Source: Phycisphaerae bacterium (GTDB lineage: Bacteria > Planctomycetota > Phycisphaerae > Sedimentisphaerales > Anaerobacaceae). From it: a stretch of 64,000 bases of DNA. Made by a program: the position numbers and the translations under genes. Below are positions 6,647 through 46,603 of this stretch, piece after piece (within the stretch, counting starts at the first letter, position 1; each line of letters starts with the position of its first letter). The notes under the pieces were generated by a model. The model saw only the letters and a list, made by a program, of their open reading frames with translations, searched no databases and was not told the DNA's origin. Location of the stretch: assembly GCA_017993835.1 (NCBI GenBank), contig JAGOLX010000028.1, positions 1-64,000 on the forward strand. The letters run 5' to 3'.

Positions 6647-8587
6647 ATGAAAGAAATAGCCAGTATGCTCTCGATTGTTGTGCTGATGACTTTTCTCGGC
6701 AATGTTCCTGTAAACGGGGGAGAAGATGAGAATCCGTTCGCCGGAGAGTCCCTGCCAGATGGATGGGCATGGAAGCGCCCGAATCCGGAGGCATGGCGAC
6801 TGCGAGACGGAGGACTTGAGATTCAGATTGGGCCCGGGAACATGTGGGGCGGAACGAACGATGCCAGGAACGTGCTGTTGATCCCCGTCGCGGGAGATTT
6901 GCTGGAATCAGGAACGGATGTCCAGGTGACGTTGGCGAACTCGCCCACTCGGCGGTGGGAACAGGTTGATCTTGTGTGGTATTACCGAGACAGCCACATG
7001 GTGAAGATCGGATTGGAACTCGAGCACGGAAAGAACTCCGTGGTGATGGGACGCGAGGAGGACGATCGGACTCGCACGATCGGGATCATTCCCATAGAGA
7101 AGGATGAGGTCACGGTTCGCCTCAGGGTTACAGGAGGGCAAGTGCGAGGATACTATCGTCTCGCCCCCGAGGACCCATGGACGGACGTTGGGACCTGCGA
7201 GGCACCCAGGCCGATCGGAGGCAACGACAGAGCCCAGGTGAGCATCCAGTGCTATCAGGGAGATCCACAGAATCCGCACTGGGCACGGATCACGGGGCTT
7301 AGGATTGACTCGGCCAGTGAGGTCAGGGCACAAAGCAATGAACGCATGCAGTGGTGGCGAGAGAGCCGTTTCGGCATGTTCGTCCACTGGGGACCGGTCA
7401 GTCTCAGAGGCACCGAGATTGGATGGTCTCGAGGAAAAGAAGTGGCCATCGAGGAGTACGACCAGCTCTACAAGCAGTTCAATCCGACGAAGTTCGATGC
7501 CGAAGAGTGGGTGAGGGTCGCCAAGGACGCCGGGATGAAGTACCTGGTGATCACCTCCAAACACCATGATGGATTCTGCCTGTGGTCGTCGAAGTACACG
7601 GACTACCATATTGGCAACACGCCTTTCAACCGCGATGTACTGAAGGAGCTATCTGAAGCCTGCAGAGAAAACGGCATTCAATTTTGTACGTACCACTCGA
7701 TTTGTGACTGGCGCCACCCGGACTACCCGCTGGGCAGCCCCGGTGGGAGTACCGCGAAGCCAACTCACGACATGCCTCGCTACTATCAGTACCTGAAAAA
7801 CCAGACAAAGGAGATCATAGACAACTATGGTCCACTGGGAATCATGTGGTTTGACGGCGAGTGGGAGAAGCCGTGGACGCGCGAGCATGGGAACGAATTG
7901 TACGAGTATCTCCTGGAGGTTCAGCCGACTCTGATAATCAACAATCGGGTGAGCAAGGGCCGTCAAGGCATGGCCGGCACTACCGAAGAATCCCACCTCA
8001 ACTCAGGCGACTACGACACGCCGGAGCAGCAGATAGGTGGATTCAACCGCGACAGGCCGTGGGAAACCTGCATGACAATCTGTCAGCAGTGGGCGTGGAA
8101 ACCAGATGATCAGATGAAATCCGCCAAGGAATGCATCCAGACGCTGGTGCGCACGGCAGGCGGGGATGGCAACCTCTTGTTCAATGTCGGCCCGATGCCC
8201 GACGGCCGGATCGAGCCACGCCAGGTAGAGAGGTTGAAGGAGATGGGCTCATGGCTTCAAGAATATGGCGATGGCATCTATGCCACGCGTGGGGGGCCTT
8301 TCAAGCCGGGCAAGTGGGGTGCGTCGACATGTAAGGACGACAAGGTCTACCTTCACGTGATGAACTGGCGTGCCGACGGCAGGTTGATGCTCCCCGGAGT
8401 CGGCCGCAAGATCGTATCCTGCCGTGCTCATGATGGTGGAGAGATGCTGCTGAAACAGAACGAAGATGCCATCGAAATCCATCTTGAGTCATCTGAACGC
8501 AATGAAATCGCCGTTGTTATTGAGCTGACGGTTGACGGCATGGCGTTCACCATCGACCCGGTGGAGGTGGCGGACCCGACGATCTGA
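6647..8587 (+). CDS. Secreted alpha-L-fucosidase (GH29) with N-terminal accessory domain
   Basis: The protein is exported and should release fucose from host or algal glycans. A signal peptide (MKEIASMLSIVVLMTFLG) is followed by about 200 residues of a beta-sandwich accessory domain (LIPVAGDLLE, VDLVWYYRDSHMVKIGLE). The GH29 barrel starts near WWRESRFGMFVHWGP and has the family signatures KHHDGFCLWSS, CTYHS and GIMWFDGEW. The aspartate of that last motif is the expected nucleophile. GGDGNLLFNVGPMPDG marks the end of the barrel, followed by a C-terminal beta domain. I start at ATG 6647, where GGCAGGGGG precedes a proper signal peptide; an upstream ATG at 6626 adds seven residues. Monocistronic by context. 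Confidence 0.93.
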   Translation: MKEIASMLSIVVLMTFLGNVPVNGGEDENPFAGESLPDGWAWKRPNPEAWRLRDGGLEIQIGPGNMWGGTNDARNVLLIPVAGDLLESGTDVQVTLANSPTRRWEQVDLVWYYRDSHMVKIGLELEHGKNSVVMGREEDDRTRTIGIIPIEKDEVTVRLRVTGGQVRGYYRLAPEDPWTDVGTCEAPRPIGGNDRAQVSIQCYQGDPQNPHWARITGLRIDSASEVRAQSNERMQWWRESRFGMFVHWGPVSLRGTEIGWSRGKEVAIEEYDQLYKQFNPTKFDAEEWVRVAKDAGMKYLVITSKHHDGFCLWSSKYTDYHIGNTPFNRDVLKELSEACRENGIQFCTYHSICDWRHPDYPLGSPGGSTAKPTHDMPRYYQYLKNQTKEIIDNYGPLGIMWFDGEWEKPWTREHGNELYEYLLEVQPTLIINNRVSKGRQGMAGTTEESHLNSGDYDTPEQQIGGFNRDRPWETCMTICQQWAWKPDDQMKSAKECIQTLVRTAGGDGNLLFNVGPMPDGRIEPRQVERLKEMGSWLQEYGDGIYATRGGPFKPGKWGASTCKDDKVYLHVMNWRADGRLMLPGVGRKIVSCRAHDGGEMLLKQNEDAIEIHLESSERNEIAVVIELTVDGMAFTIDPVEVADPTI

Positions 8588-8957
8588 TCCCAGGGAACAT
8601 CCTGCGCTTGTTAAGGGCGTAGGGTGCGAAAACTCATCCATGTATAACAGGGGTGATTTCAGCAAGTTGACGTCGAAATCACTGTTGGAAACCATATGGT
8701 AGCGGGAGAGGTATGGCGGGCCATCTATCATTGAACGCTGCTTGGATGAGAGCTGCCTGGCGCCGAGATTGTGTTCAAGCGGGCACTGCCTCCGCGTGGG
8801 TGGTTTTTGGCAGGATGTCACTTGACGTGCAACCAAAAAAGCAACTAAAACCATGCGCATCATATTGATCATGATCAACATGACGATTTGAGATTGTGCC
8901 CCCTAAAGGGTTGCCGCATCCACAAGTTATGGAAGATGCGGGACTTCCGGAAAGGCG

Positions 8958-9359: not shown

Positions 9360-9392
9360 TGGAAATCGGCATGTAAAAGGGACCCACGTCGG
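9360..9392. repeat. IS21 left terminal inverted repeat
   Basis: This 33-bp end is the perfect reverse complement of 11679-11711. It begins with TG, as IS21-family ends do. Confidence 0.9.
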
Positions 9393-9452
9393 CGCCGAAT
9401 TTGGGCCCACCTAAGGCATACTACACACCCTTACACCACACCGTAAAAGGGA

Positions 9453-10220
9453 TCATTGTTTTCCTGGTTTGCTTTTCTTGACCGACTCGCGGAACCGGTA
9501 GCTCTCGCCGTTCATCTCGAAGATGTGGCAGTGATGGGTCAACCGGTCCAGCAGGGCCGCGGTCATGCGTTCGCCCTGGAAGACCTGGCCCCACTCGCTG
9601 AACGGCAGGTTGCTGGTGAGCAGCAGGCTGGCCCGTTCATACCGATCCGCAAAGACCTGGAACAACAGCTCGGCGCCGGTCCGGCTGAACGAGAGGTAGC
9701 CCAGCTCATCACAGATCAGCAAATCCACCCGATCGAGCTGGCTCAAGAAGCGGTCCAGTTGATACTGCTTCTGGGTCTCCTCCAAGCGGGTGACCAGTGC
9801 AGCCGCCGTGTAGAACTTGACCCGCCGACCGGCCCGACAGGCCGCCAGACCCAAAGCAATTGCCAGATGTGTTTTCCCGACCCCTTGACTCCCTAAAAGA
9901 CAAAGATTCTCATGCTGGTCCAACCACTGGCAGCGCGTCAGTTCCACGATCTTCTGCTTGTTCAGATTCGGCACGAGGCTGAAGTCATAACTGTCCAGGT
10001 CCTTATAGACCGGGAACGCCGCCTGCTTGATCCGTGCCTGGAGCGCATGCGCGCAACGCTGCGCCGACTCCAACTCGACCAGACGCAACAAGTATTGGAG
10101 ATAATGCGCGTTCTCTTGGGCCGCCTCCTGCGCCAATTTCTGGTACTCGGCCAAGATCGTGGGCAACCGTAACCGCTTCAAATGCACCGCTAACAAGCGT
10201 TGTTCGTTTTCCATCGTCAT
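9453..10220 (-). CDS. istB: IS21 helper ATPase IstB
   Basis: IstB is the AAA+ ATPase that selects the target and stimulates the IstA transposase. The 255-residue protein has Walker A GSQGVGKTHLA, Walker B LLICDELGY, and the family ending HHCHIFEMNGESYRFRES. The start is ATG 10220, where AAGGAGCC precedes it; the open frame upstream to 10289 overlaps the end of istA and lacks a ribosome site. It follows istA with an 81-bp gap. It appears full length and intact. Confidence 0.95.
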   Translation of the reverse strand: MTMENEQRLLAVHLKRLRLPTILAEYQKLAQEAAQENAHYLQYLLRLVELESAQRCAHALQARIKQAAFPVYKDLDSYDFSLVPNLNKQKIVELTRCQWLDQHENLCLLGSQGVGKTHLAIALGLAACRAGRRVKFYTAAALVTRLEETQKQYQLDRFLSQLDRVDLLICDELGYLSFSRTGAELLFQVFADRYERASLLLTSNLPFSEWGQVFQGERMTAALLDRLTHHCHIFEMNGESYRFRESVKKSKPGKQ

Positions 10221-10301
10221 CGCAGGCTCCTTGTCTTTGGGGTAATAGCAGATCGAAATGGTCCAGCTGGGGAACCGGGATGTGAACACCGGCAGAGGAT
10301 C

Positions 10302-11585
10302 TCATATCCGGGCGGGACTCGCCCTCCTCGGCGACCGGACGAGCCCTTCCCGCTCTTCGAAGGTGGCCCGCAGCTCCTCGAAGCAGGCCGGCAATTTCCA
10401 TTCGGCGAACACGAAGGAGTGATCCAGGGCCGCCGGCCGGCGCCCAAGAATCGCCAGGTAATGCTGCGGTTGCACGATCCATTCCTCGCGAGCATAACTG
10501 CGTGCGTGGCGCGCAATCACGCTCTCGCCGGACACCACCTCGATCCGATCCACGTACGCCTTGATCGCCACCGTCGCGAAGGCCCAGCGTCGCGGCACAC
10601 TGTAGCGGTTCGTGTCGAACCGCACCGTCTGGTACTTGTCCACCTTGGCCGTCTCGGGCACGAACGGATCGAAGGCCCGCGGTGGCAGGGGCAACGCCGC
10701 TTGCTGGTCCTGCTCGAAGAGTTGCCCGATCGTTTGCGTCCGGCCTGCCATCATGTGGTCCCGCTTGGCCAAAGCGCACGACCGCAGATACACATTCAAC
10801 TCGGCCAGGTCCTCTGCCCGGGGAACCGGAGTCGCCCAGTCCCGCTGCAGGTCATACACACTGTGCTCCACGTAGGGCTTCTCGTTGCCCCGCGCCGGCA
10901 TGCAGAACCGGGGATCGAAACAGTAGTGGCTCGCCAGGGCGGCGTACCGCGGCTGTACCTTGCGCCGGCGACCTTCCAGGACCGCCGTGGCTACCGTCGT
11001 GGGATTATCCCACCAGACCTCCCACGGCACGCAGCCGAAGAACTCGAACCCCTGGACCATTCCCGCCAGAATCGCCTCCGTCTGCTCGCTCGGCAAGGCC
11101 ACGGCGAAGCGATAGCCCGAGTGACTCCACGTCAGCAGCAACACCGAGACCGGCTCCCGTCCCTGCGGGAAGTCCACGTAGATGTGGCCGAAGTCCGCCT
11201 CCAACCGCCGGCCCGGCGGATGCGTCAGCGGGATAAACGTCTCGCGTTGGGCTCGACCGAGCTTACTGACGTAGCGCCGCACCTGGTCATAGCCGCCTGG
11301 GTAGCCGTGCTCCTCCCGCAGGCGGCGATAGAGCTTCGCCGCCGTGTGCTGCTGTTTGCGTGGGGCTTGTCGGTCCTCCGCCAGGATCTGCTCGATCACC
11401 GCTTTGTACGGACCCAACTGGGGAGCCGGCCGCTCCGCCGGCAATGTGTAGGGACGGGGCTCACTCTCCTCCAGAACCTGCCGGACCTTCCGCCGGGAAT
11501 GGTGAAACCGTCGGGCAATCTGCCGAATGCTCATCCCATCCCGATGCGCAATTCGGATCTTGCAGTAGTCTTCCACCGTCAGCAT
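10302..11585 (-). CDS. istA: IS21 transposase IstA, probably C-terminally shortened
   Basis: This is a DDE transposase with an N-terminal helix-turn-helix (SIRQIARRFHHSRRKVRQVL) and an integrase core. The catalytic residues lie in LEADFGHIYVDF, VWWDNPTT and the NEKPYVEHSVYDLQRDW segment. It has 427 residues, while family members are usually near 500. The normal C-terminal helical region is absent after WKLPACFEELRATFEE. A family-like ending (VHIPVPQLDHFDLLL) is found in a different frame just before istB. I infer a deletion with loss of frame near 10300. The element may therefore be unable to transpose by itself. Confidence 0.85.
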   Translation of the reverse strand: MLTVEDYCKIRIAHRDGMSIRQIARRFHHSRRKVRQVLEESEPRPYTLPAERPAPQLGPYKAVIEQILAEDRQAPRKQQHTAAKLYRRLREEHGYPGGYDQVRRYVSKLGRAQRETFIPLTHPPGRRLEADFGHIYVDFPQGREPVSVLLLTWSHSGYRFAVALPSEQTEAILAGMVQGFEFFGCVPWEVWWDNPTTVATAVLEGRRRKVQPRYAALASHYCFDPRFCMPARGNEKPYVEHSVYDLQRDWATPVPRAEDLAELNVYLRSCALAKRDHMMAGRTQTIGQLFEQDQQAALPLPPRAFDPFVPETAKVDKYQTVRFDTNRYSVPRRWAFATVAIKAYVDRIEVVSGESVIARHARSYAREEWIVQPQHYLAILGRRPAALDHSFVFAEWKLPACFEELRATFEEREGLVRSPRRASPARI

Positions 11586-11678
11586 CCTTTCTTCTCCGTC
11601 ATCCGAGGGCCTGATGCAAAAGCCCTCAGCGTACGGAGATCACTGCGGTGGGTCCATTTTCGATGCCGATTCTACTCC

Positions 11679-11711
11679 CCGACGTGGGTCCCTTTTACAT
11701 GCCGATTTCCA
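11679..11711. repeat. IS21 right terminal inverted repeat
   Basis: This is the perfect 33-bp reverse complement of 9360-9392 and ends in CA. Confidence 0.9.
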
Positions 11712-11909
11712 TAATGAGATGGGATACTCAAACGCCGGACGGCTCAGACTTGTGACCAGTATCAGTATTGCGATGCAGGCCATCGACCGCCGCCATAACC
11801 GGAGAGCAGATGGAAGAGCTACGTTCGTACTCTATGATCGCCGGTATCACGAGAGTGATCTCGGTGACCAGTTGTACCTCGATATATGGAGAGACCGGAG
11901 CGACTGACA

Positions 11910-13730
11910 ATGGGATCTCTGCTGCGGACCGACGATTACGTTGCCTACCGCTACTGTCCGCGAAAGGCTTTTCTTCTTCTTTCAGGTCATCCGCCCGGTC
12001 AATTGCATGAATATGTCCAGGTGATCGCCGCTGCGGCCGCGAAGAACGCCGCCAAGTACCTCGCTGAACTGACATCTACCACCAACTTAGCCGGTAGGAC
12101 AATTGCGCAAGACATCCATTCTCGTGCAGAAGTAGTTGTACGGCCAACACTCCGATTTCAGGATCTCGAAGCCTGCCCAGATGCCTTGCTTGCAGCCAAG
12201 CAAACCGCTCGTCGTGAAAACAGCCTGTACTACGAGCCGGTAGTTGTTGCTGGGACGCATCGTATTGACGATGAGCACATGAACACGCTTTACGTCATCG
12301 GTTATGTACTCAAACAGATTCAGCGAACACCGCCCGCACGTGGCCTTATAATAACGGAGGACGGGGTTCGTCATGCGGTAAGGTTGGACGCTCCATACAC
12401 GTCAGTGGAATCAGTTGTGGCCACCCTGCGCGGGTGGACATCGTCCAACTCGCCACCAACCGAGCCAGGAGCGCTTCTCAATGGCCACTGTCCGTATTGC
12501 GTATTCCGTGTCGAGTGTGAGGAATGCGCACGCCAAGCCGATGATCTAACCCTCCTCGACCGAATGACACCTAAGCTGCTTCGACGCTATCACCGAAAGG
12601 GTATCTTCACTATCACGCAATTGTCATATCTCTTTCGTCCCAGGCGATTTCGCAAGCGTCCTCGGGGTACATCAGCACCCTTCAACGTGGAACTCCAGGC
12701 GCTTGCCATCAGAACCGGCAAGATATATCTCCAGCAGGTCCCTGAGATAATCCGATCCAATGTGGAGCTATTCCTCGATATTGAAGGGGTACCTGACCGT
12801 GGGTTCTGCTATCTCTTCGGCGTATTGGTGGGCCACGATCAGACCAGACGGTATCATGCGTTCTGGGCCGACGACCTGAAGCAAAAGCGAACTGCATTCG
12901 AATCGCTCATTAGCAGGCTGAACGAGCATCCCGACGCACCAATCTACCATTACGCGCGCTATGAGAAGCAAGCACTCGCAGTTCTCGAAAGGCGTCATGG
13001 CACCAGCTGTGATTCGATCCGGAGGCGGCGTGTCAACATCAATACATCTATCCACGGCATTGTGTACTTTCCAGTCAACTCCAATGGCTTGAAGGAGATC
13101 GGTAGGTATCTTGGCGCAACCTGGTCTTTGCCCGAGCCGTCTGGGCTACAGAGTCTTGCCTGGCGACATCATTGGGAGGAGTCGGGAGAGAATCGCTACA
13201 AGGACTTGCTCATCGCATACAATGCGGAGGATTGTCGAGCATTGCTTCTGCTGACGGATGAACTCACGAAGATCGCGCAGACCGCGGATTCCAACCTCAA
13301 CAACATCGACTTCGCGGATCGTCCAAAGAGGGAATGTACGGAGGAGGCTGGGGACATCCATAGGCGTCTTGACGCGATATTGAGGTGTGCCCACAGCGAT
13401 TACCCGAAGAAGAGAATCTCGCTTGGGGAAGCGCCGGGTGAAGGGTCTGGTGCGGTCAGAAAGCGAGGTGCTCGTAAAGGCCACCAAGCATATCAACGAA
13501 TCGCTCCAGTGAAGGTGGGACGGACTATTCGCGTTCACCCAAAGCGAGTCTGCCCAAGGCACAAGGGCGAGGTTCTTGCGAAGACTGATCACCAAGCACA
13601 GAAGATACTGATTGATCTGGTATTCAGCAAGACAGGCTGCAAGAAGACCGTGACAAGGTACGTAGGCCAAAAAACGTTCTGTCAACGGTGCAGGTTGTAC
13701 TACAATCCGCCCGCGATCAGTCGAAGTTAG
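11910..13730 (+). CDS. TM0106-type RecB-like/RNase H-like nuclease fused to an IS66-like transposase N-terminus
   Basis: Residues 1-250 form a Cas4/RecB-like region with an early YCPRKAF motif and a later cysteine cluster (CPYCVFRVECEEC) typical of iron-sulfur RecB relatives. The E-x-K catalytic pair expected in YYEPVVVAGTHRI is not present. Residues about 275-475 are a DEDD exonuclease-like RNase_H_2 domain: VELFLDIEGVP, YHYARYEKQAL, FPVNSNGLKEIGRYLG, IAYNAEDC. After about residue 480 comes a transposase N-terminal part (RKRGARKGHQAYQRI, CPRHKGE, then a zinc-ribbon CQRC). The catalytic core of that transposase is missing. ATG 11910 has GGAG nine bases upstream. The gene sits directly beside the IS21 element. 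Confidence 0.7.
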   Translation: MGSLLRTDDYVAYRYCPRKAFLLLSGHPPGQLHEYVQVIAAAAAKNAAKYLAELTSTTNLAGRTIAQDIHSRAEVVVRPTLRFQDLEACPDALLAAKQTARRENSLYYEPVVVAGTHRIDDEHMNTLYVIGYVLKQIQRTPPARGLIITEDGVRHAVRLDAPYTSVESVVATLRGWTSSNSPPTEPGALLNGHCPYCVFRVECEECARQADDLTLLDRMTPKLLRRYHRKGIFTITQLSYLFRPRRFRKRPRGTSAPFNVELQALAIRTGKIYLQQVPEIIRSNVELFLDIEGVPDRGFCYLFGVLVGHDQTRRYHAFWADDLKQKRTAFESLISRLNEHPDAPIYHYARYEKQALAVLERRHGTSCDSIRRRRVNINTSIHGIVYFPVNSNGLKEIGRYLGATWSLPEPSGLQSLAWRHHWEESGENRYKDLLIAYNAEDCRALLLLTDELTKIAQTADSNLNNIDFADRPKRECTEEAGDIHRRLDAILRCAHSDYPKKRISLGEAPGEGSGAVRKRGARKGHQAYQRIAPVKVGRTIRVHPKRVCPRHKGEVLAKTDHQAQKILIDLVFSKTGCKKTVTRYVGQKTFCQRCRLYYNPPAISRS

Positions 13731-14167
13731 ACAAGTTCTACGAGGCCAAGATAATCGGAAGAGCATATGAATCCGAATTCGTTGTCAAGTACCAGAAGCG
13801 ATTCGAGCGATACCGAGATGCCCTGTTCCTCTTTCTCCAAGAGGATGGACTTCCCTGGAACAACAACACAGGGGAGAGAGCCATAAGGCAATTGGCCGTT
13901 CAGCGCAAGATATCTGGATCGTTCTACAGGAAATCGGCCCTACACTACCTGCTTCTGCTGGGCATCGCGCAGACATGCCGATTCCAAGAGAAGTCCTTCT
14001 TGAAGTTCCTCATCTCCGGTGAGAAGGATGTTGATCGGTTCAAAGCAACGAGATGCAAGCGAATCTCAAAACCGGTATTTCCCCACAGAGAGGGGCGCCT
14101 GCAAGCAAAGGAAGGCCCAGACACAGAGGGTTTCGATAATCAGGGAGGCGTTGCAGGCGCAAACTGA
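13727..14167 (+). pseudogene. C-terminal remnant of the IS66-like transposase
   Basis: In another frame from the preceding gene, residues continue the same transposase family at its C-terminal end: FERYRDALFLFL, GLPWNNNTGERAIRQLAVQ, KISGSFY, then LLLLGIAQTCRFQEKSFLKFL. Between the upstream zinc-ribbon and this segment, roughly 300 residues of DDE core are gone and the frame has shifted. The last 40 or so codons before the stop at 14167 are not conserved-looking. The transposase moiety is dead. Confidence 0.65.
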
Positions 14168-14385: not shown

Positions 14386-15258
14386 TCAGCCATTTCGGAG
14401 GATTGCGGCGATCTGGGGACGGAGCTGACCGATCACCTTGTTGAAGGTCGGCAACTCTGGCACCAGATTACCCAGCCATTGACTCCACGTCCTCTCCACG
14501 TAGGCCAGCATTGCATCATCAAAGAAATCGTCTGGCCCCCGGAAATCCACGCGGCGCAGGTCACACTTGGCTCTGACCAGCCCCTCGAAATCCGTCAGGT
14601 CCAGGCGATCTTGATATGCTCCCAGGATACGCCAGATGTCATAGTAATCCCGCGCCCGCGACCGGCTCCAACCCCGCTCTTCGAGCATCCGGCGATGCTG
14701 AAGAATCGCCCGCAGTTTCTCCGCAACAATCTCTTCGAGGCCATAAACCTGCACATCGGCTTCGATGGGCTCTCCGTACTCATGGACCACGCTCCGGAGG
14801 CATGGAGGTTTCAGCACCTTCTCATCCACGGCAATTTCCACCATCACGCGTGTCTGGGCCTGTTTTTGCCAAGGCAATTGCACCCGAACGGTAAACGCCT
14901 CCTGACCGGCAGGGTGAGGTTCCCGCTCCGTATACCGTTCCCATTCAATCCGCACGGGGGCATATTCATCCAGCAACTCAGTTGCCGTCCGGCAGACGCC
15001 TTCGATGGCAGTCTCCATATCCTCGCCCACAGGCACTCCGGTCAGACCTGAGAAATCCAGATCCTCAGAGAATCGGTAATCCCCGAAGTAACATTTCTTC
15101 AGAGCGGTGCCACCTTTGAACACCAGCGTCTCACACAATTGCTCGTGACGACTGATTCCCACCAGAATCCAAGACAGCATATAATCCCGCTCCAGCACCT
15201 CCCAGCCCATGCCTGTGCGTTGTCTCGCCTGCTCCAGCCTTATACGAAGAGGCTTCAT
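14386..15258 (-). CDS. abiEii: AbiEii-type nucleotidyltransferase toxin
   Basis: This is the toxin of a type IV toxin-antitoxin system. The family uses nucleotidyltransfer, shown for relatives to block tRNA, and causes growth arrest or abortive infection. The 290-residue protein has the DUF1814 signatures FKGGTALKKCYFGDYRFSED with the metal-binding DLDF, then VYGLEEIVAEKLRAI, and DYYDIWRIL. Its start overlaps the antitoxin stop by 4 bp (15255-15258), so translation is coupled. All hallmark residues are present, so it is probably active. Confidence 0.9.
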   Translation of the reverse strand: MKPLRIRLEQARQRTGMGWEVLERDYMLSWILVGISRHEQLCETLVFKGGTALKKCYFGDYRFSEDLDFSGLTGVPVGEDMETAIEGVCRTATELLDEYAPVRIEWERYTEREPHPAGQEAFTVRVQLPWQKQAQTRVMVEIAVDEKVLKPPCLRSVVHEYGEPIEADVQVYGLEEIVAEKLRAILQHRRMLEERGWSRSRARDYYDIWRILGAYQDRLDLTDFEGLVRAKCDLRRVDFRGPDDFFDDAMLAYVERTWSQWLGNLVPELPTFNKVIGQLRPQIAAILRNG

Positions 15259-16085
15259 GGTGTCACCTTTCCAGCCAGGTTCTCCTGAACCATCCAGGAA
15301 CGGTTACGCGTGCCTCGACGCGGACCAGTCGGATCGAGCTTGCTATAGCCCGTGACCTCTACCCGCTCAAGAACGCCTAGCCGCGACCGCTCTGTCCCCG
15401 CCTTTTCCAGCACCCAACCCAGGCGCTTAGCCGTAGCGGCATCCAGCTTCAGGGCGTACTCGATAAGTTGGTCCAGGTTTACCCGGTCATGCGCCTCTGC
15501 AAAGGCATGAATCACCTCTGCGAACCCACCGCAGTGCTGAGGCATCAGCAACCCGTCGATCAAGGTCCGTTCCATGTCCGTGACCGTCACCCGCGCTTCA
15601 TCGATCCAGACTTCCTTGGTCCCGAAGAACCGTTCCGGCTTGACCTGAACAAACTGATAGACGGTTTCACCCAGCCGGTATCCGCCCCCATTCCCGCGAT
15701 CCTTGTTCCCGCGCGGCACCCAATGGCCAGTGGTCGTCGTAACAAAGATCCGGTGCGGGATTTGATCGGTCAGTTCGTGGTAGTGCATTGCGGAGAAGTG
15801 GCTGATCGCCGCCGGACGCACCAGGGCCATGGCAACCTCGAATTCATGGACTGGCGAAGCTCCCGGCATGGATGACGAAAGGGCGTACAGCCCCTTGCGT
15901 AACCGGACGAGCCATCCGGCCCGCTCCAGGTGATGCAGGGCTTGGCGCACATAACCCTCTGACAACCCCACTTCAAGGGCAGTCTCGCGGGCCTGCTCCA
16001 TCGAAACGATGCGGCACCCGTCGGCGGCCAGTCGCTGCACCAGCATCAACGCCGGCGTCGACCGAGATGGATGTTCTTGCGTCAT
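15255..16085 (-). CDS. abiEi: AbiEi-type antitoxin/transcriptional regulator
   Basis: This is the cognate antitoxin; AbiEi proteins bind their own promoter as well as neutralising AbiEii. The 276-residue protein has a winged-helix N-terminus (SEGYVRQALHHLERAGWLVRL, RKGLYAL) and the AbiEi_4-like centre (AAISHFSAMHYHELTDQIP) plus VTDMERTLIDGL. It lies first in the operon. The start ATG at 16085 overlaps a palindromic operator and a candidate -10 box, so the mRNA is likely leaderless. No ribosome site is seen. Confidence 0.88.
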   Translation of the reverse strand: MTQEHPSRSTPALMLVQRLAADGCRIVSMEQARETALEVGLSEGYVRQALHHLERAGWLVRLRKGLYALSSSMPGASPVHEFEVAMALVRPAAISHFSAMHYHELTDQIPHRIFVTTTTGHWVPRGNKDRGNGGGYRLGETVYQFVQVKPERFFGTKEVWIDEARVTVTDMERTLIDGLLMPQHCGGFAEVIHAFAEAHDRVNLDQLIEYALKLDAATAKRLGWVLEKAGTERSRLGVLERVEVTGYSKLDPTGPRRGTRNRSWMVQENLAGKVTP

Positions 16086-16541: not shown

Positions 16542-16592
16542 GCAATGGGCAGGGCCGGAGTTGAACCGGCGACACACGGATTTTCAGTCCGT
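16542..16592. repeat. Left att repeat (attL): partial tRNA-Phe copy
   Basis: This 51-bp sequence matches 46527-46577 at 49 of 51 positions in the same orientation. It covers the anticodon arm through the 3' end of tRNA-Phe, minus strand. The two differences, 16556 and 16568, are the two halves of one T-stem base pair (51-63), so pairing is preserved. Confidence 0.9.
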
Positions 16593-17076
16593 CCGGGTGT
16601 TTTGTAAGTCCTTGTGGCAAAACGATTAACGATTGTCAAATAACGACTTATGAGATCAGGCGTAGATCAGCCGAAGGTCAAGCGAAGCCCAGACGTACAT
16701 GTCTGGCGCGCACTTTGGCGCGCGCCTGATACGCCGAAGCTGGTAAGACCGGCCCAATGCTGTTCGCTCCGATTCCCAGAGGGCCAGTGCCCCACCACCT
16801 TCGAGCCTAACGGTTTGCTCTCTTCCAGTTGTGGCGGCCAGCCAACTACCTTTGACGGCTCCCTATACCCCCATGGCGTTGTTCAGAGGCGTAAGCTCTC
16901 TCATCTGATTCATGATGCGGCCCTCCTGTAACAGCACTTCAGGGCTCCGCCAAGGTACTCGCGAAAGATCATCTGGCCATCCTGCCAGCATGACACAGAC
17001 CATTCCCATGGCTGTTGCCTCGATCACCACGCGCGCTCTTTCTTCCCAGACACCGTTTCGGAATAACAACACGCCA
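16593..17076. other. Left end of the mobile element, no gene
   Basis: This is non-coding as far as I can see. It contains ACGATTGTC (about 16632) matching a sequence just inside the right end (46503-46511), which may be integrase arm-binding sequence, and GGCGCGCGCC at about 16718. Confidence 0.4.
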
Positions 17077-18342
17077 CTACGGTGCCAGGATTCCACCAAC
17101 TTCTACATCCGCAAGCACGACCGTGCCCTTGGTCGCGGAGATCTGGCTCACATCTACGTCTTCGCCCCGGATCGATAGCTCCACGCTGATATTCTTGCCG
17201 GGACCGATGATCTCTGGGTTCAAGGTCACCGTCCACGTTCCCCCGGCTGCCGATACGGCCGTCGCCTGGGCAAGGAGTTTCAACTTGAACGACGCATTCA
17301 ATTGGATTGTTGTATGACCTACGTACGTCCGATCAGGGTTGGGAGCATTGGGGTCATTGACCAGTGTAATCGACATCTCCTTGTAGGTCGCGGCGAAAGT
17401 CACGCTCGCAGTAGACCCGTACTCGTAAACTCCCATGTCCACGCGGTCATTGATGATTCGCGGTTGCCCGTCCAGGTCCAGCAAATTGGGATCAGACGGG
17501 TAGTTGGGGTCACCCGCATCGATGCAGGGCGAGCCCATGCAAAGGCGGTAGTTCCCATCCACCCATACTGCATCAGGCTTGGCCGGGTCCCACAGAACAC
17601 TGGCATCGGTCGACTTGCCCCAGTGGCCCGGAGCCACGAAGAGCGGGTCTCTCGCAATGTTCCCAGGTCCGAACGCTTCGATACTGAGATCGCTATAGGA
17701 GAATTCCGGCGGTGTCAACTCGCCGAACATCGGGAATCCGATGTCTGCGGGCGTGTTCCCCCACAGAATCGAGTTCGCAATGAAGTTCTGACTCTCGGAG
17801 CAGTAGAAACCCGCTCCCGCTTGGCCGCCGTAGTTGCCGCTGATCGTGCAATGGTCAAATACCGCATTGCTCTTGCTGCAGTAGATCCCGCCACCTCCAA
17901 ACAGATTCTGCGAGCGGTTGCCTACGATCAGGCAATCGGTAATGGTCGGACTGCTCCCCGAGCAGAAGATGCCGCCAGCTTCTCTTCCCTGCCCTCGTGT
18001 GATGACGAAGCCCGATAGCACGGAGTTGGCGTCTTCACCGCCAACGAACTTGACGACTGTACCCTGATAATTGCCGTCGATGACCGGACATGGCACTCCC
18101 CTTTGGGCGGAGGTGTTGGGGTCAAAGCCAGTGACCGTTATCTTCTTGCCCAGAAAATCGATGCTCTCCCAGTATGTACCACCAAGAACAACGACCTTCT
18201 GCCCGTCTGCTGCCGCTCCGATCGCTTCCTGAATGGAATCAAACGGGTGCTCCCGCGTACCGTCCTCCTCGGGATCGCTCACTGATATGTCCCCCGCCTT
18301 CGGATCGGCGGCAGCGTCATCATCCACATAGAGAACCGTCTC
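17077..18342. repeat. Long direct repeat, copy A (3' module of beta-helix gene)
   Basis: About 1,266 bp repeated at 19215-20480 with an offset of 2,138 bp. Differences are confined to a few bases near the stop codon; the internal translated segments I compared are identical. The identity ends sharply at GAACCGTCTC in both copies. Confidence 0.93.
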
Positions 18343-19113
18343 GTCACCTGTGCCGCTGCCGTCGGGACCCGTCCCGCTCGTTGTCAACTCGAGGTTGTAC
18401 AGGTCCTGGACCTCAGACTCCGAGAGATCGCGATTGTAGATCCTCAGAGTCGAGACCTTGCCTTTCCAGTACCCTCCCCAGCCCATTCTCCCCTGCGGAT
18501 ACTCGCACGTTCCCATGGTGAAGTTGTGATTGCCCCGGTTGCTGCCGCCAGCCGGGATCGTTACTGTCTTCGTCGCATCCGTTATTATCCTCCTCGCATC
18601 CACGTAGATGACCGAAGCACTCTCGGTCATGACCCAGACGATGTGTCTCCACACTCGGTGCAAGGGCATCGTGGAATCGACGGTGACAGCGTAGCGGAAG
18701 CCGAACCCATTCTTGTCGGCTCGAACGAAGATCTGGTTGCTGCTATTGGTCGTGAGGACCACATCCTTCCCGAGGTCCCAATCTCCATCGTTGAAGAGCG
18801 CGCTGTAGCTGCTCGTTGTCTCCTCGTCTGAATAGACCCAGACACTCACCGTCATCCGATCCATGTCCGGCAGGACTTGGCCCCAGTAGATGTAGTCATC
18901 CACGCCGTCAAACTCGTAGGCGCTGTTGTCCACGTTACGGTGGTCGTTGGTCAACGTCGCGCCGTCCACCGTTCCATGAAGGCCGTTCCCGCTGGCGTCC
19001 TTGGCATCGCCATCAAAGGGATAGTGAGCCACGAGGCCGTCGGTCAGACTGGCCGACGCAATCGAGCCACAAACCAGTAACCATCCCGCCAAGATGATAC
19101 TCGCCTCTCTCAT
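17077..19113 (-). CDS. Secreted LamG plus right-handed beta-helix protein, copy A
   Basis: A signal peptide (REASIILAGWLLVCGSIASA) leads into a LamG/concanavalin-like domain of about 230 residues (GLVAHYPFDGDAKDASGNG, YEFDGVDDYI, KVSTLRIYNRDLSESEV). A short linker and a TVLYVDDDAAADP block follow, then a parallel beta-helix of about 200 residues with repeats such as GIFCSGSSPTITDCLI and GIYCSKSNAVFDHCTI. The end of the helix has SPCIDAGDPNYP and LDLDGQPRI, as in planctomycete polymorphic outer-membrane-like repeat proteins. A C-terminal Ig-like domain ends the protein. It is presumably cell-surface or extracellular and may bind or cleave polysaccharide; no catalytic residues are assignable. 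ATG 19113 is chosen because it directly opens the signal peptide (19131 is possible). Confidence 0.8.
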   Translation of the reverse strand: MREASIILAGWLLVCGSIASASLTDGLVAHYPFDGDAKDASGNGLHGTVDGATLTNDHRNVDNSAYEFDGVDDYIYWGQVLPDMDRMTVSVWVYSDEETTSSYSALFNDGDWDLGKDVVLTTNSSNQIFVRADKNGFGFRYAVTVDSTMPLHRVWRHIVWVMTESASVIYVDARRIITDATKTVTIPAGGSNRGNHNFTMGTCEYPQGRMGWGGYWKGKVSTLRIYNRDLSESEVQDLYNLELTTSGTGPDGSGTGDETVLYVDDDAAADPKAGDISVSDPEEDGTREHPFDSIQEAIGAAADGQKVVVLGGTYWESIDFLGKKITVTGFDPNTSAQRGVPCPVIDGNYQGTVVKFVGGEDANSVLSGFVITRGQGREAGGIFCSGSSPTITDCLIVGNRSQNLFGGGGIYCSKSNAVFDHCTISGNYGGQAGAGFYCSESQNFIANSILWGNTPADIGFPMFGELTPPEFSYSDLSIEAFGPGNIARDPLFVAPGHWGKSTDASVLWDPAKPDAVWVDGNYRLCMGSPCIDAGDPNYPSDPNLLDLDGQPRIINDRVDMGVYEYGSTASVTFAATYKEMSITLVNDPNAPNPDRTYVGHTTIQLNASFKLKLLAQATAVSAAGGTWTVTLNPEIIGPGKNISVELSIRGEDVDVSQISATKGTVVLADVEVGGILAP

Positions 19114-19214: not shown

Positions 19215-20480
19215 CTACGGTGCCAGGATGCCACCGACTTCTACATCCGCAAGCACGACCGTGCCCTTGGTCGCGGAGATCTGGCTCACATCTACGTCTT
19301 CGCCCCGGATCGATAGCTCCACGCTGATATTCTTGCCGGGACCGATGATCTCTGGGTTCAAGGTCACCGTCCACGTTCCCCCGGCTGCCGATACGGCCGT
19401 CGCCTGGGCAAGGAGTTTCAACTTGAACGACGCATTCAATTGGATTGTTGTATGACCTACGTACGTCCGATCAGGGTTGGGAGCATTGGGGTCATTGACC
19501 AGTGTAATCGACATCTCCTTGTAGGTCGCGGCGAAAGTCACGCTCGCAGTAGACCCGTACTCGTAAACTCCCATGTCCACGCGGTCATTGATGATTCGCG
19601 GTTGCCCGTCCAGGTCCAGCAAATTGGGATCAGACGGGTAGTTGGGGTCACCCGCATCGATGCAGGGCGAGCCCATGCAAAGGCGGTAGTTCCCATCCAC
19701 CCATACTGCATCAGGCTTGGCCGGGTCCCACAGAACACTGGCATCGGTCGACTTGCCCCAGTGGCCCGGAGCCACGAAGAGCGGGTCTCTCGCAATGTTC
19801 CCAGGTCCGAACGCTTCGATACTGAGATCGCTATAGGAGAATTCCGGCGGTGTCAACTCGCCGAACATCGGGAATCCGATGTCTGCGGGCGTGTTCCCCC
19901 ACAGAATCGAGTTCGCAATGAAGTTCTGACTCTCGGAGCAGTAGAAACCCGCTCCCGCTTGGCCGCCGTAGTTGCCGCTGATCGTGCAATGGTCAAATAC
20001 CGCATTGCTCTTGCTGCAGTAGATCCCGCCACCTCCAAACAGATTCTGCGAGCGGTTGCCTACGATCAGGCAATCGGTAATGGTCGGACTGCTCCCCGAG
20101 CAGAAGATGCCGCCAGCTTCTCTTCCCTGCCCTCGTGTGATGACGAAGCCCGATAGCACGGAGTTGGCGTCTTCACCGCCAACGAACTTGACGACTGTAC
20201 CCTGATAATTGCCGTCGATGACCGGACATGGCACTCCCCTTTGGGCGGAGGTGTTGGGGTCAAAGCCAGTGACCGTTATCTTCTTGCCCAGAAAATCGAT
20301 GCTCTCCCAGTATGTACCACCAAGAACAACGACCTTCTGCCCGTCTGCTGCCGCTCCGATCGCTTCCTGAATGGAATCAAACGGGTGCTCCCGCGTACCG
20401 TCCTCCTCGGGATCGCTCACTGATATGTCCCCCGCCTTCGGATCGGCGGCAGCGTCATCATCCACATAGAGAACCGTCTC
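19215..20480. repeat. Long direct repeat, copy B (3' module of beta-helix gene)
   Basis: Second copy of the repeat at 17077-18342, same orientation. It covers the beta-helix and C-terminal domain but not the LamG domain. Confidence 0.93.
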
Positions 20481-21230
20481 CCCGCCTGCGCCACCGGCCG
20501 CAGCACCTTCCTTCAAGTTGTGAAGAGCCAGGACTTCTGCACCCGACAAGGCTCTATCATAAATCCGCAGTGAGGATATCTTGCCCTTCCAATAGCTGCC
20601 GAAGGGCTGAGAACCCAACAATTGTACCCCGAGGAAGACGTTGTGCCTACCCACATTGGAGCCGCCGCGAGGCACCCATGCCTGCAGGACCCCGTCCACG
20701 TAAACAGAGGATTCGGTACCTGTGAATGCCCAGGCGATGTTCACCCATCGATCCGCTATCCTGCCGCCCACACCAAGATACAGTTCCTTGAATGGGAAGC
20801 CGTTCTTCCAAGCCTCAAGATACACTCCCGAATCCCCGTTGAGCTGAAACTTCACACCTGCTAGCTCAGGACCGTCAGCATCTACAAAGATGAACCTGAA
20901 CCCCGATTGGCCCGACGGCTCATAGAACCAAATCTCCATCGTCATCTCAGCCATATTGGGAAATGCCGTCCCAAAGCCGATGTAGTCATCTACGCCGTCG
21001 AACTCGTAGGCGCTGTTTGCCGCCCCATCCTGATCGCTGGTCAAGGTCGCCCCATGCACGGTGCCATCGTGACCTTGACCGCTGGCATCCTTGGCATTTC
21101 CCTGAAATGGATAGTATGCCACCAATCCGTCAGTAAGGTCTGCTGACGCTACCGATGTACCGAGTACCAACCACCCTATGCAGGACAGACTGAATGTACC
21201 TACCACTGCCGCCCAACCTTTCATCTTCAT
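19215..21230 (-). CDS. Secreted LamG plus right-handed beta-helix protein, copy B
   Basis: This is a tandem paralogue of the gene at 17077. From TVLYVDDDAAADP to the stop the protein is identical to copy A. The N-terminal LamG domain is clearly different although of the same family (GLVAYYPFQGNAKDASGQG, DDYIGFGTAFPNMAEMTMEIWFYE, KISSLRIYDRALSGAEV). The signal peptide is MKMKGWAAVVGTFSLSCIG followed by a hydrophobic core. The contrast of a variable N-terminal ligand-binding domain with a constant scaffold suggests domain swapping or gene conversion. Transcription is toward copy A with a 100-bp gap. Confidence 0.8.
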   Translation of the reverse strand: MKMKGWAAVVGTFSLSCIGWLVLGTSVASADLTDGLVAYYPFQGNAKDASGQGHDGTVHGATLTSDQDGAANSAYEFDGVDDYIGFGTAFPNMAEMTMEIWFYEPSGQSGFRFIFVDADGPELAGVKFQLNGDSGVYLEAWKNGFPFKELYLGVGGRIADRWVNIAWAFTGTESSVYVDGVLQAWVPRGGSNVGRHNVFLGVQLLGSQPFGSYWKGKISSLRIYDRALSGAEVLALHNLKEGAAAGGAGGETVLYVDDDAAADPKAGDISVSDPEEDGTREHPFDSIQEAIGAAADGQKVVVLGGTYWESIDFLGKKITVTGFDPNTSAQRGVPCPVIDGNYQGTVVKFVGGEDANSVLSGFVITRGQGREAGGIFCSGSSPTITDCLIVGNRSQNLFGGGGIYCSKSNAVFDHCTISGNYGGQAGAGFYCSESQNFIANSILWGNTPADIGFPMFGELTPPEFSYSDLSIEAFGPGNIARDPLFVAPGHWGKSTDASVLWDPAKPDAVWVDGNYRLCMGSPCIDAGDPNYPSDPNLLDLDGQPRIINDRVDMGVYEYGSTASVTFAATYKEMSITLVNDPNAPNPDRTYVGHTTIQLNASFKLKLLAQATAVSAAGGTWTVTLNPEIIGPGKNISVELSIRGEDVDVSQISATKGTVVLADVEVGGILAP

Positions 21231-46526: not shown

Positions 46527-46603
<77 letters not shown>

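Follow-up and report, generated by a model that had tools for sequence, protein, structure and literature searches.

The closest known relatives of the gene considered here come from several families. Solo proteins of the TM0106 type (TIGR03491) have the N-terminal Cas4/RecB-like Fe-S domain and the RNase_H_2/DEDD domain that are common to the fusions, but stop after the nuclease, or reach about 1,000 residues, without acquiring a DDE domain, and the PD-(D/E)XK lysine present in 8 of 15 solo rows of the alignment is lost in the fusions. With IS66 transposases (NF033517/PF03050) the fusions have in common a zinc ribbon and a DDE domain with its D-D-E triad; unlike them, they have a nuclease replacing the usual N-terminus and form a separate, well-supported clade. 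IS66 elements have tnpA and tnpB accessory genes, absent in the ISBst12 subgroup, and a survey of neighbouring gene families at fusion loci brought out no recurrent family of the tnpA/tnpB type. A further contrast with IS66 elements is that no convincing terminal inverted repeats or 8-bp target duplication were found at the fusions.

In CRISPR adaptation, Cas4-like and/or DEDD end-processing domains are fused to, or work with, an integrase, as in Cas4-Cas1 and in the Cas1-Cas2/DEDDh trimmer-integrase, a fused exonuclease-integrase that trims before joining (PMC10284694). In the fusions the joining enzyme is a DDE recombinase and not Cas1, no cas1/cas2 or array was noted near them, the exonuclease resembles the proofreading type of B-family polymerases (YxxxD), and the Cas4-like active site is degenerate. 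Dna2-type nucleases also have a RecB-like domain with a four-cysteine Fe-S cluster, and a Foldseek match connects the two, yet the fusion has no helicase, has lost the nuclease lysine and possesses a DEDD exonuclease. Integron gene cassettes offer a different kind of parallel, four fusion copies being situated between or beside attI, attC or IntI features, though most copies, including that of the window, show no such features and a recombinase gene is unusual cargo.

The window, by which is meant the whole 64,000-nucleotide stretch analysed (positions 1 to 64,000 of contig JAGOLX010000028.1 from a Phycisphaerae bacterium), contains a broken member of this family. An ORF of 606 residues on the forward strand (11910..13730, with an alternative ATG possible at 11886) is matched by the TM0106 nuclease profile TIGR03491 over residues 9-449 (E 6.1e-64; 216.7 bits against a curated cut-off of 97.45 bits) and by PF13482, RNase_H_2 (E 1.7e-24). 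Its residues 1-212 (11910..12545), delimited by an AlphaFold2 model match, alignment and residue counts, constitute the Cas4/RecB-like Fe-S domain, in which the four cysteines are kept and the PD-(D/E)XK lysine is absent. The DEDD 3′-5′ exonuclease domain, residues 283-464 (12756..13301), is identified by PF13482, fold match and alignment; it has D290, E292, the glutamate of HYARYE and D441, which closes the YxxxD motif, with D290, E292 and D441 invariant across the aligned family. The last 90 or so residues of the ORF align with intact fusions where the recombinase half of these opens with a zinc ribbon. In the window this zinc-ribbon part is at 13527..13709, and C548, C591 and C594 are invariant in the alignment.

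At 13718..13724, pairwise alignments to four intact fusions place a deletion junction at which about 192 codons and the reading frame were lost; the residues missing number 192-199, depending on the relative, and include the recombinase's first two catalytic aspartates (D1 and D2). The orphan recombinase C-terminus follows in a different frame (13718..14167, forward strand), within a mechanically called ORF at 13688-14167 that matches the C-terminal ends of PF03050 (E 2.1e-7) and NF033517 (E 4.7e-13), and it retains the third catalytic residue, the final glutamate of NNNTGE. Part of what a sequence-only reading of this DNA had proposed is borne out: a TM0106-type nuclease does run in frame into an IS66-type N-terminus, the transposase C-terminus does lie in another frame, the recombinase is inactivated while the nuclease ORF is still open, and the RecB-like part is indeed degenerate, its lysine being missing from essentially all fusions. 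Its estimate of about 300 missing residues was too high.

The window copy cannot recombine, and at most a 606-residue exonuclease could be made from it. Near-invariant family positions are retained at 68 of 72 sites in the nuclease ORF and at 22 of 23 in the orphan recombinase tail. That the non-functional tail is as well preserved as the nuclease points to a recent deletion. A recent deletion would also account for the open nuclease frame, which for this reason is no evidence of selection, and selection on the nuclease after recombinase loss is unproven. Upstream, an IS21-family element (9360-11711; IstB 9453-10289 and IstA 10302-11585, both on the reverse strand) has at its two ends a 33-bp inverted repeat without mismatch (9360-9392 and 11679-11711) and stops about 200 bp before the fusion ORF. 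Genes for an AbiEii toxin (14386-15258) and an AbiEi antitoxin (15255-16085), also on the reverse strand, adjoin the remnant on the other side, and in two genomes of the same genus (G007 and G008) DNA homologous to the AbiE region is present while a fusion homologue was not found. The 6.4-Mb genome to which the window belongs yielded no second copy of the fusion, just fragments of one other IS66 gene, and no full integron integrase, and an attC scan around the window copy found no integron features.

Elsewhere in the window, a 1,278-bp direct repeat of 99.5% identity (17077-18354 and 19215-20492) lies within two tandem paralogous LamG/beta-helix genes and suggests recent duplication or gene conversion. 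A short repeat at 16542-16755 and 46527-46577 is scattered across the genus in several copies per genome.

A scan of 84,980 species genomes, seeded on the nuclease motifs, gave 223 confirmed relatives for the nuclease half. The best 80 of these were read and 79 loci retained, in most of which the nuclease and recombinase are within one ORF. The first intact relative found, L005, has both halves in a single ORF of 971 residues, and a search of the phylum gave more. Far from all homologues being separate genes, the loci taken together gave 67 complete single-ORF fusions of about 880-1,030 residues, a total in which a few genes are represented twice, so that the intact form which the sequence-only reading had envisaged elsewhere does exist. 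The order of domains in intact members is Cas4/RecB-like Fe-S domain, DEDD exonuclease, zinc ribbon and IS66-type DDE recombinase, and all 42 intact fusions that were aligned together match each of TIGR03491, PF13482, NF033517 and PF03050. Hosts include Cyanobacteria, Planctomycetota, Ignavibacteriota, Bacteroidota, Chloroflexota, Acidobacteriota, Nitrospirota and proteobacteria, and among the archaea ANME-1, Methanoperedens and Thermoplasmatota. Two annotated plasmids have a copy each, and the annotations reflect one half or the other: that on Acaryochloris pREC4 is annotated as a TM0106 nuclease, that of Calothrix PCC 7716 as a putative IS66 transposase. Records of intact fusion proteins include BDA76463.1 for Calothrix PCC 7716 and WP_261892461.1 for Acaryochloris.

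Truncated or nuclease-only members also occur outside the window (L048, L071, L074 and L089). That at L071 (4489-6725) stops before the recombinase, and immediately in front of it is the 3′ end of an integron integrase gene. A copy from Phycisphaerales (UBA9295; L002/L030) is interrupted by one in-frame TGA, which falls after the zinc ribbon and before the DDE domain, close to the cut points of the window copy and L048. No relative was detected on viral contigs, phage records gave just partial IS66 matches, a sequence search of the PDB found no relative, and PADLOC returned no model beyond a weak Cas4. No paper was found that treats TM0106 together with a transposase or that names TIGR03491, and broader literature searches, judged on the titles and abstracts listed, turned up no published description. 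The family is apparently undescribed and unnamed; its domains are known, while their combination, its breadth and its link to integrons appear new.

Conservation of the functional residues is close to complete. The DEDD sites D275, E277 and D426 are kept in 76 of 76 sequences, while at the fourth every sequence has either E or D; the Fe-S cysteines C179, C182 and C188 are likewise present in all 76, and C14 in 72 of the 72 where that position is present. The DDE triad is found in 69, 69 and 68 of 69 sequences, the one exception being a gap at the last position. At the PD-(D/E)XK lysine position, by contrast with the K in 8 of 15 solo rows, the fusions mostly have V, I, T or L. With this catalytic lysine replaced and the other catalytic residues kept, the Fe-S domain probably serves as a scaffold that binds DNA but has no catalytic role, and the exonuclease and recombinase have probably been maintained as active enzymes. 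A nuclease tree unites the fusions, broken derivatives included, in a single clade apart from 10 true TM0106 proteins (SH-aLRT 100), and a recombinase tree unites the same set in a single clade apart from ordinary IS66 transposases (support 99, stem 0.82). Values of dN/dS over 17 fusion pairs are mostly 0.05-0.3 for both halves. Both halves have a single shared origin and are under purifying selection. Within the family, L079 and L083 have close nuclease halves (dN 0.11) and distant recombinase halves (dN 0.34, dS saturated), and the halves seem to have been exchanged by recombination; L032 and L034 likewise look mosaic.

When the window protein is modelled with AlphaFold2 (mean pLDDT 82.7), its residues 1-212 match the Cas4 domain of the Cas4/1-Cas2 complex (7mi4; Z 17.4, rmsd 2.8 over 184 residues) and residues 283-464 the 3′-5′ exonuclease domain of B-family DNA polymerases (Z about 14-15). 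Foldseek with the same model gave Dna2 at E 2.0e-5, and it gave a weak match to the DnaQ domain from S. thermophilus DGCC 7710 (E 0.012). A full-length model of the Calothrix protein, for which the relative placement of domains is uncertain (pLDDT 86.9, pTM 0.58), matches the ISCth4 DDE transposase (E 3.9e-8) as well as Cas4.

The fusion gene is transferred between phyla, and between domains of life, as a unit about the length of its ORF. Copies from an Ignavibacteriales genome (L025) and Brocadia (L027) are 87% identical in DNA, those from ANME-1 (L026) and a bacterium (L028) 90%, and the homology between such cross-phylum copies ends at the ORF ends or within about 60 bp of them; cyanobacterial pairs of 87-89% identity have essentially no common DNA beyond the ORF. 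The terminal repeats that the sequence-only reading expected intact members to have were not recovered: nothing convincing by way of inverted repeats plus target duplication was seen within 450 bp on either side of the 67 ORFs or at 21 mapped homology boundaries, the nearest approaches being a 29-bp inverted repeat without target duplication at L057 and a weak inverted repeat with an 8-bp near-match at L029, and the copies are few and divergent, with several in integrons. Most genomes have one copy and a few have up to five, divergent from one another; no near-identical copies within one genome were noted, the best same-genome pair noted being 76% identical, although MAG assemblies can hide near-identical copies. 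By these features of their sequence and surroundings, intact copies do not look like insertion sequences or ordinary transposons.

Integron features are present at four of about 75 loci (L027, L061, L025 and L071). For the Brocadia insertion at L027, the sequences that flank it are directly joined as an empty site in two related genomes. Comparison of the joint (empty CAT-GTT-GAACG; filled CATG/TTATGC...GGCG/TTGAAC) places the insertion at G^TT, at attI; the last part of the left flank is a 5′ remnant of intI, here a divergent integron integrase gene, and elsewhere in the genus the repeats that flank L027 abut IntI genes. The inserted DNA consists of an acetyltransferase gene with an attC-like hairpin (z -6.7) and then the fusion. 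At L061 a complete IntI (470 bits), divergently oriented, is found 359 bp upstream of the fusion, and L071 adjoins the 3′ end of an IntI gene. Downstream of the L025 fusion is an attC with 22 arm pairs (relaxed score p 0.002). Matches to a strict attC pattern were at shuffle level except at L025, and the relaxed score clearly singled out L025 alone, with nothing convincing at the remaining loci. Strand folding of the proposed attC sites after the L027 and L050 fusions is weak (z -1.7 and -1.0), and so these two sites rest on sequence boundaries.

Toxin-antitoxin and restriction genes are frequent cargo of integron cassettes and of islands (PMC9668308), and both are met beside the fusions. Within 600 bp, HigB/Gp49 was found at least five times, AbiEii at least four and DUF5615 at least twice, some of the loci being related, a distribution suggestive of toxin-antitoxin enrichment near the fusion gene. 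Certain units have moved together with toxin-antitoxin genes: DUF433-DUF5615 at L050 and L073, AbiE at L088 and L091, and HigBA at L079, L082 and L083. At L044 a gene for a XamI-family restriction enzyme (7804-8763) begins just where the fusion ORF closes (7811), in an operon-like manner. Two Planctomycetota genomes have, in different surroundings, a 6-kb unit of 93% identity (L080 1723-7725; L099 1753-7756) that comprises a 262-residue ORF, a DNA methylase (PF01555) and the fusion, with the methylase directly upstream of the fusion at L080. Assignment of the 262-residue ORF (L080 1756-2544) as a restriction enzyme was dropped, Pfam giving it no family. Thirteen fusion loci have a tyrosine recombinase nearby; among the matches listed, Phage_integrase is no commoner near (4 of 149 neighbours) than far (4 of 105), and for that reason it is not taken as a partner. 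Three cyanobacterial loci (L039, L060 and L068) represent one island context, with a flank of 89-91% identity, occupied by three different fusion genes and by toxin-antitoxin-like modules that vary in order and orientation.

An even chance is given to the reading that the window copy was inactivated recently and belongs to one ancient family, horizontally mobile, the intact protein of which is a trim-and-join recombinase. The Fe-S domain and exonuclease would grip and trim a DNA end, and the DDE domain would join the resulting 3′-OH to a target; such an enzyme need not act on the ends of its own gene, and in the window it would have been disabled by the internal deletion of about 192 codons that took the first two DDE aspartates. 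Exonuclease trimming coupled to DDE joining is the most likely activity, going by domain logic and by analogy with Cas4-Cas1 and Cas1-Cas2/DEDDh. A more specific version, a CRISPR-independent, DDE-based trimmer-integrase that captures DNA ends and pastes them, once trimmed, into genomes or arrays while its gene travels as integron or plasmid cargo and not by ends of its own, is considered improbable. Intact members could instead be autonomous IS66-like insertion sequences whose built-in exonuclease helps their own transposition (it might, for instance, degrade DNA of the flanks or of the donor) and whose short ends were missed; this is rather doubtful. The invariant DDE triad, the IS66 profile match, the closeness of the DDE fold to the ISCth4 transposase and the movement of the gene between phyla all fit such elements, and the ends may be cryptic or within the ORF. 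Against them stand the lack of convincing ends just described, pairs of 88-90% identity with essentially nothing in common beyond the ORF, the lack of near-identical copies in the same genome, and the position of the Brocadia and L061 copies within integron arrays.

The neighbouring toxin-antitoxin genes, the units that have moved jointly with them, and the restriction enzyme and methylase genes at L044 and L080 would also suit an effector against mobile elements or phage, with a nuclease that destroys invading DNA and a DDE domain that cuts or anchors it, carried as toxin-antitoxin and restriction cassettes often are (PMC9668308). This is unlikely, as PADLOC saw just a weak Cas4, toxin-antitoxin genes are generally common on integrons and plasmids, some of the neighbours counted come from related loci, and there is no constant partner gene. 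For the window itself, the fully open 606-residue frame with catalytic and Fe-S residues retained, together with the other nuclease-only or truncated members, could be read as a nuclease half selectively kept as a stand-alone exonuclease after recombinase loss; the equal preservation of the non-functional tail, which is what a recent deletion predicts, makes this quite unlikely, and the window branch has no close relative for dN/dS. Hardly any credence attaches to chance read-through of a nuclease gene into an unrelated IS66 fragment: the window copy is broken and an IS21 element adjoins it, but it was rejected on the strength of the many complete single-ORF fusions, each half of which forms one clade.

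The window itself adds just a broken copy to the fusion family. If the trim-and-join reading of the intact members is true, the family would represent a second natural way to couple DNA trimming with joining, besides CRISPR adaptation.
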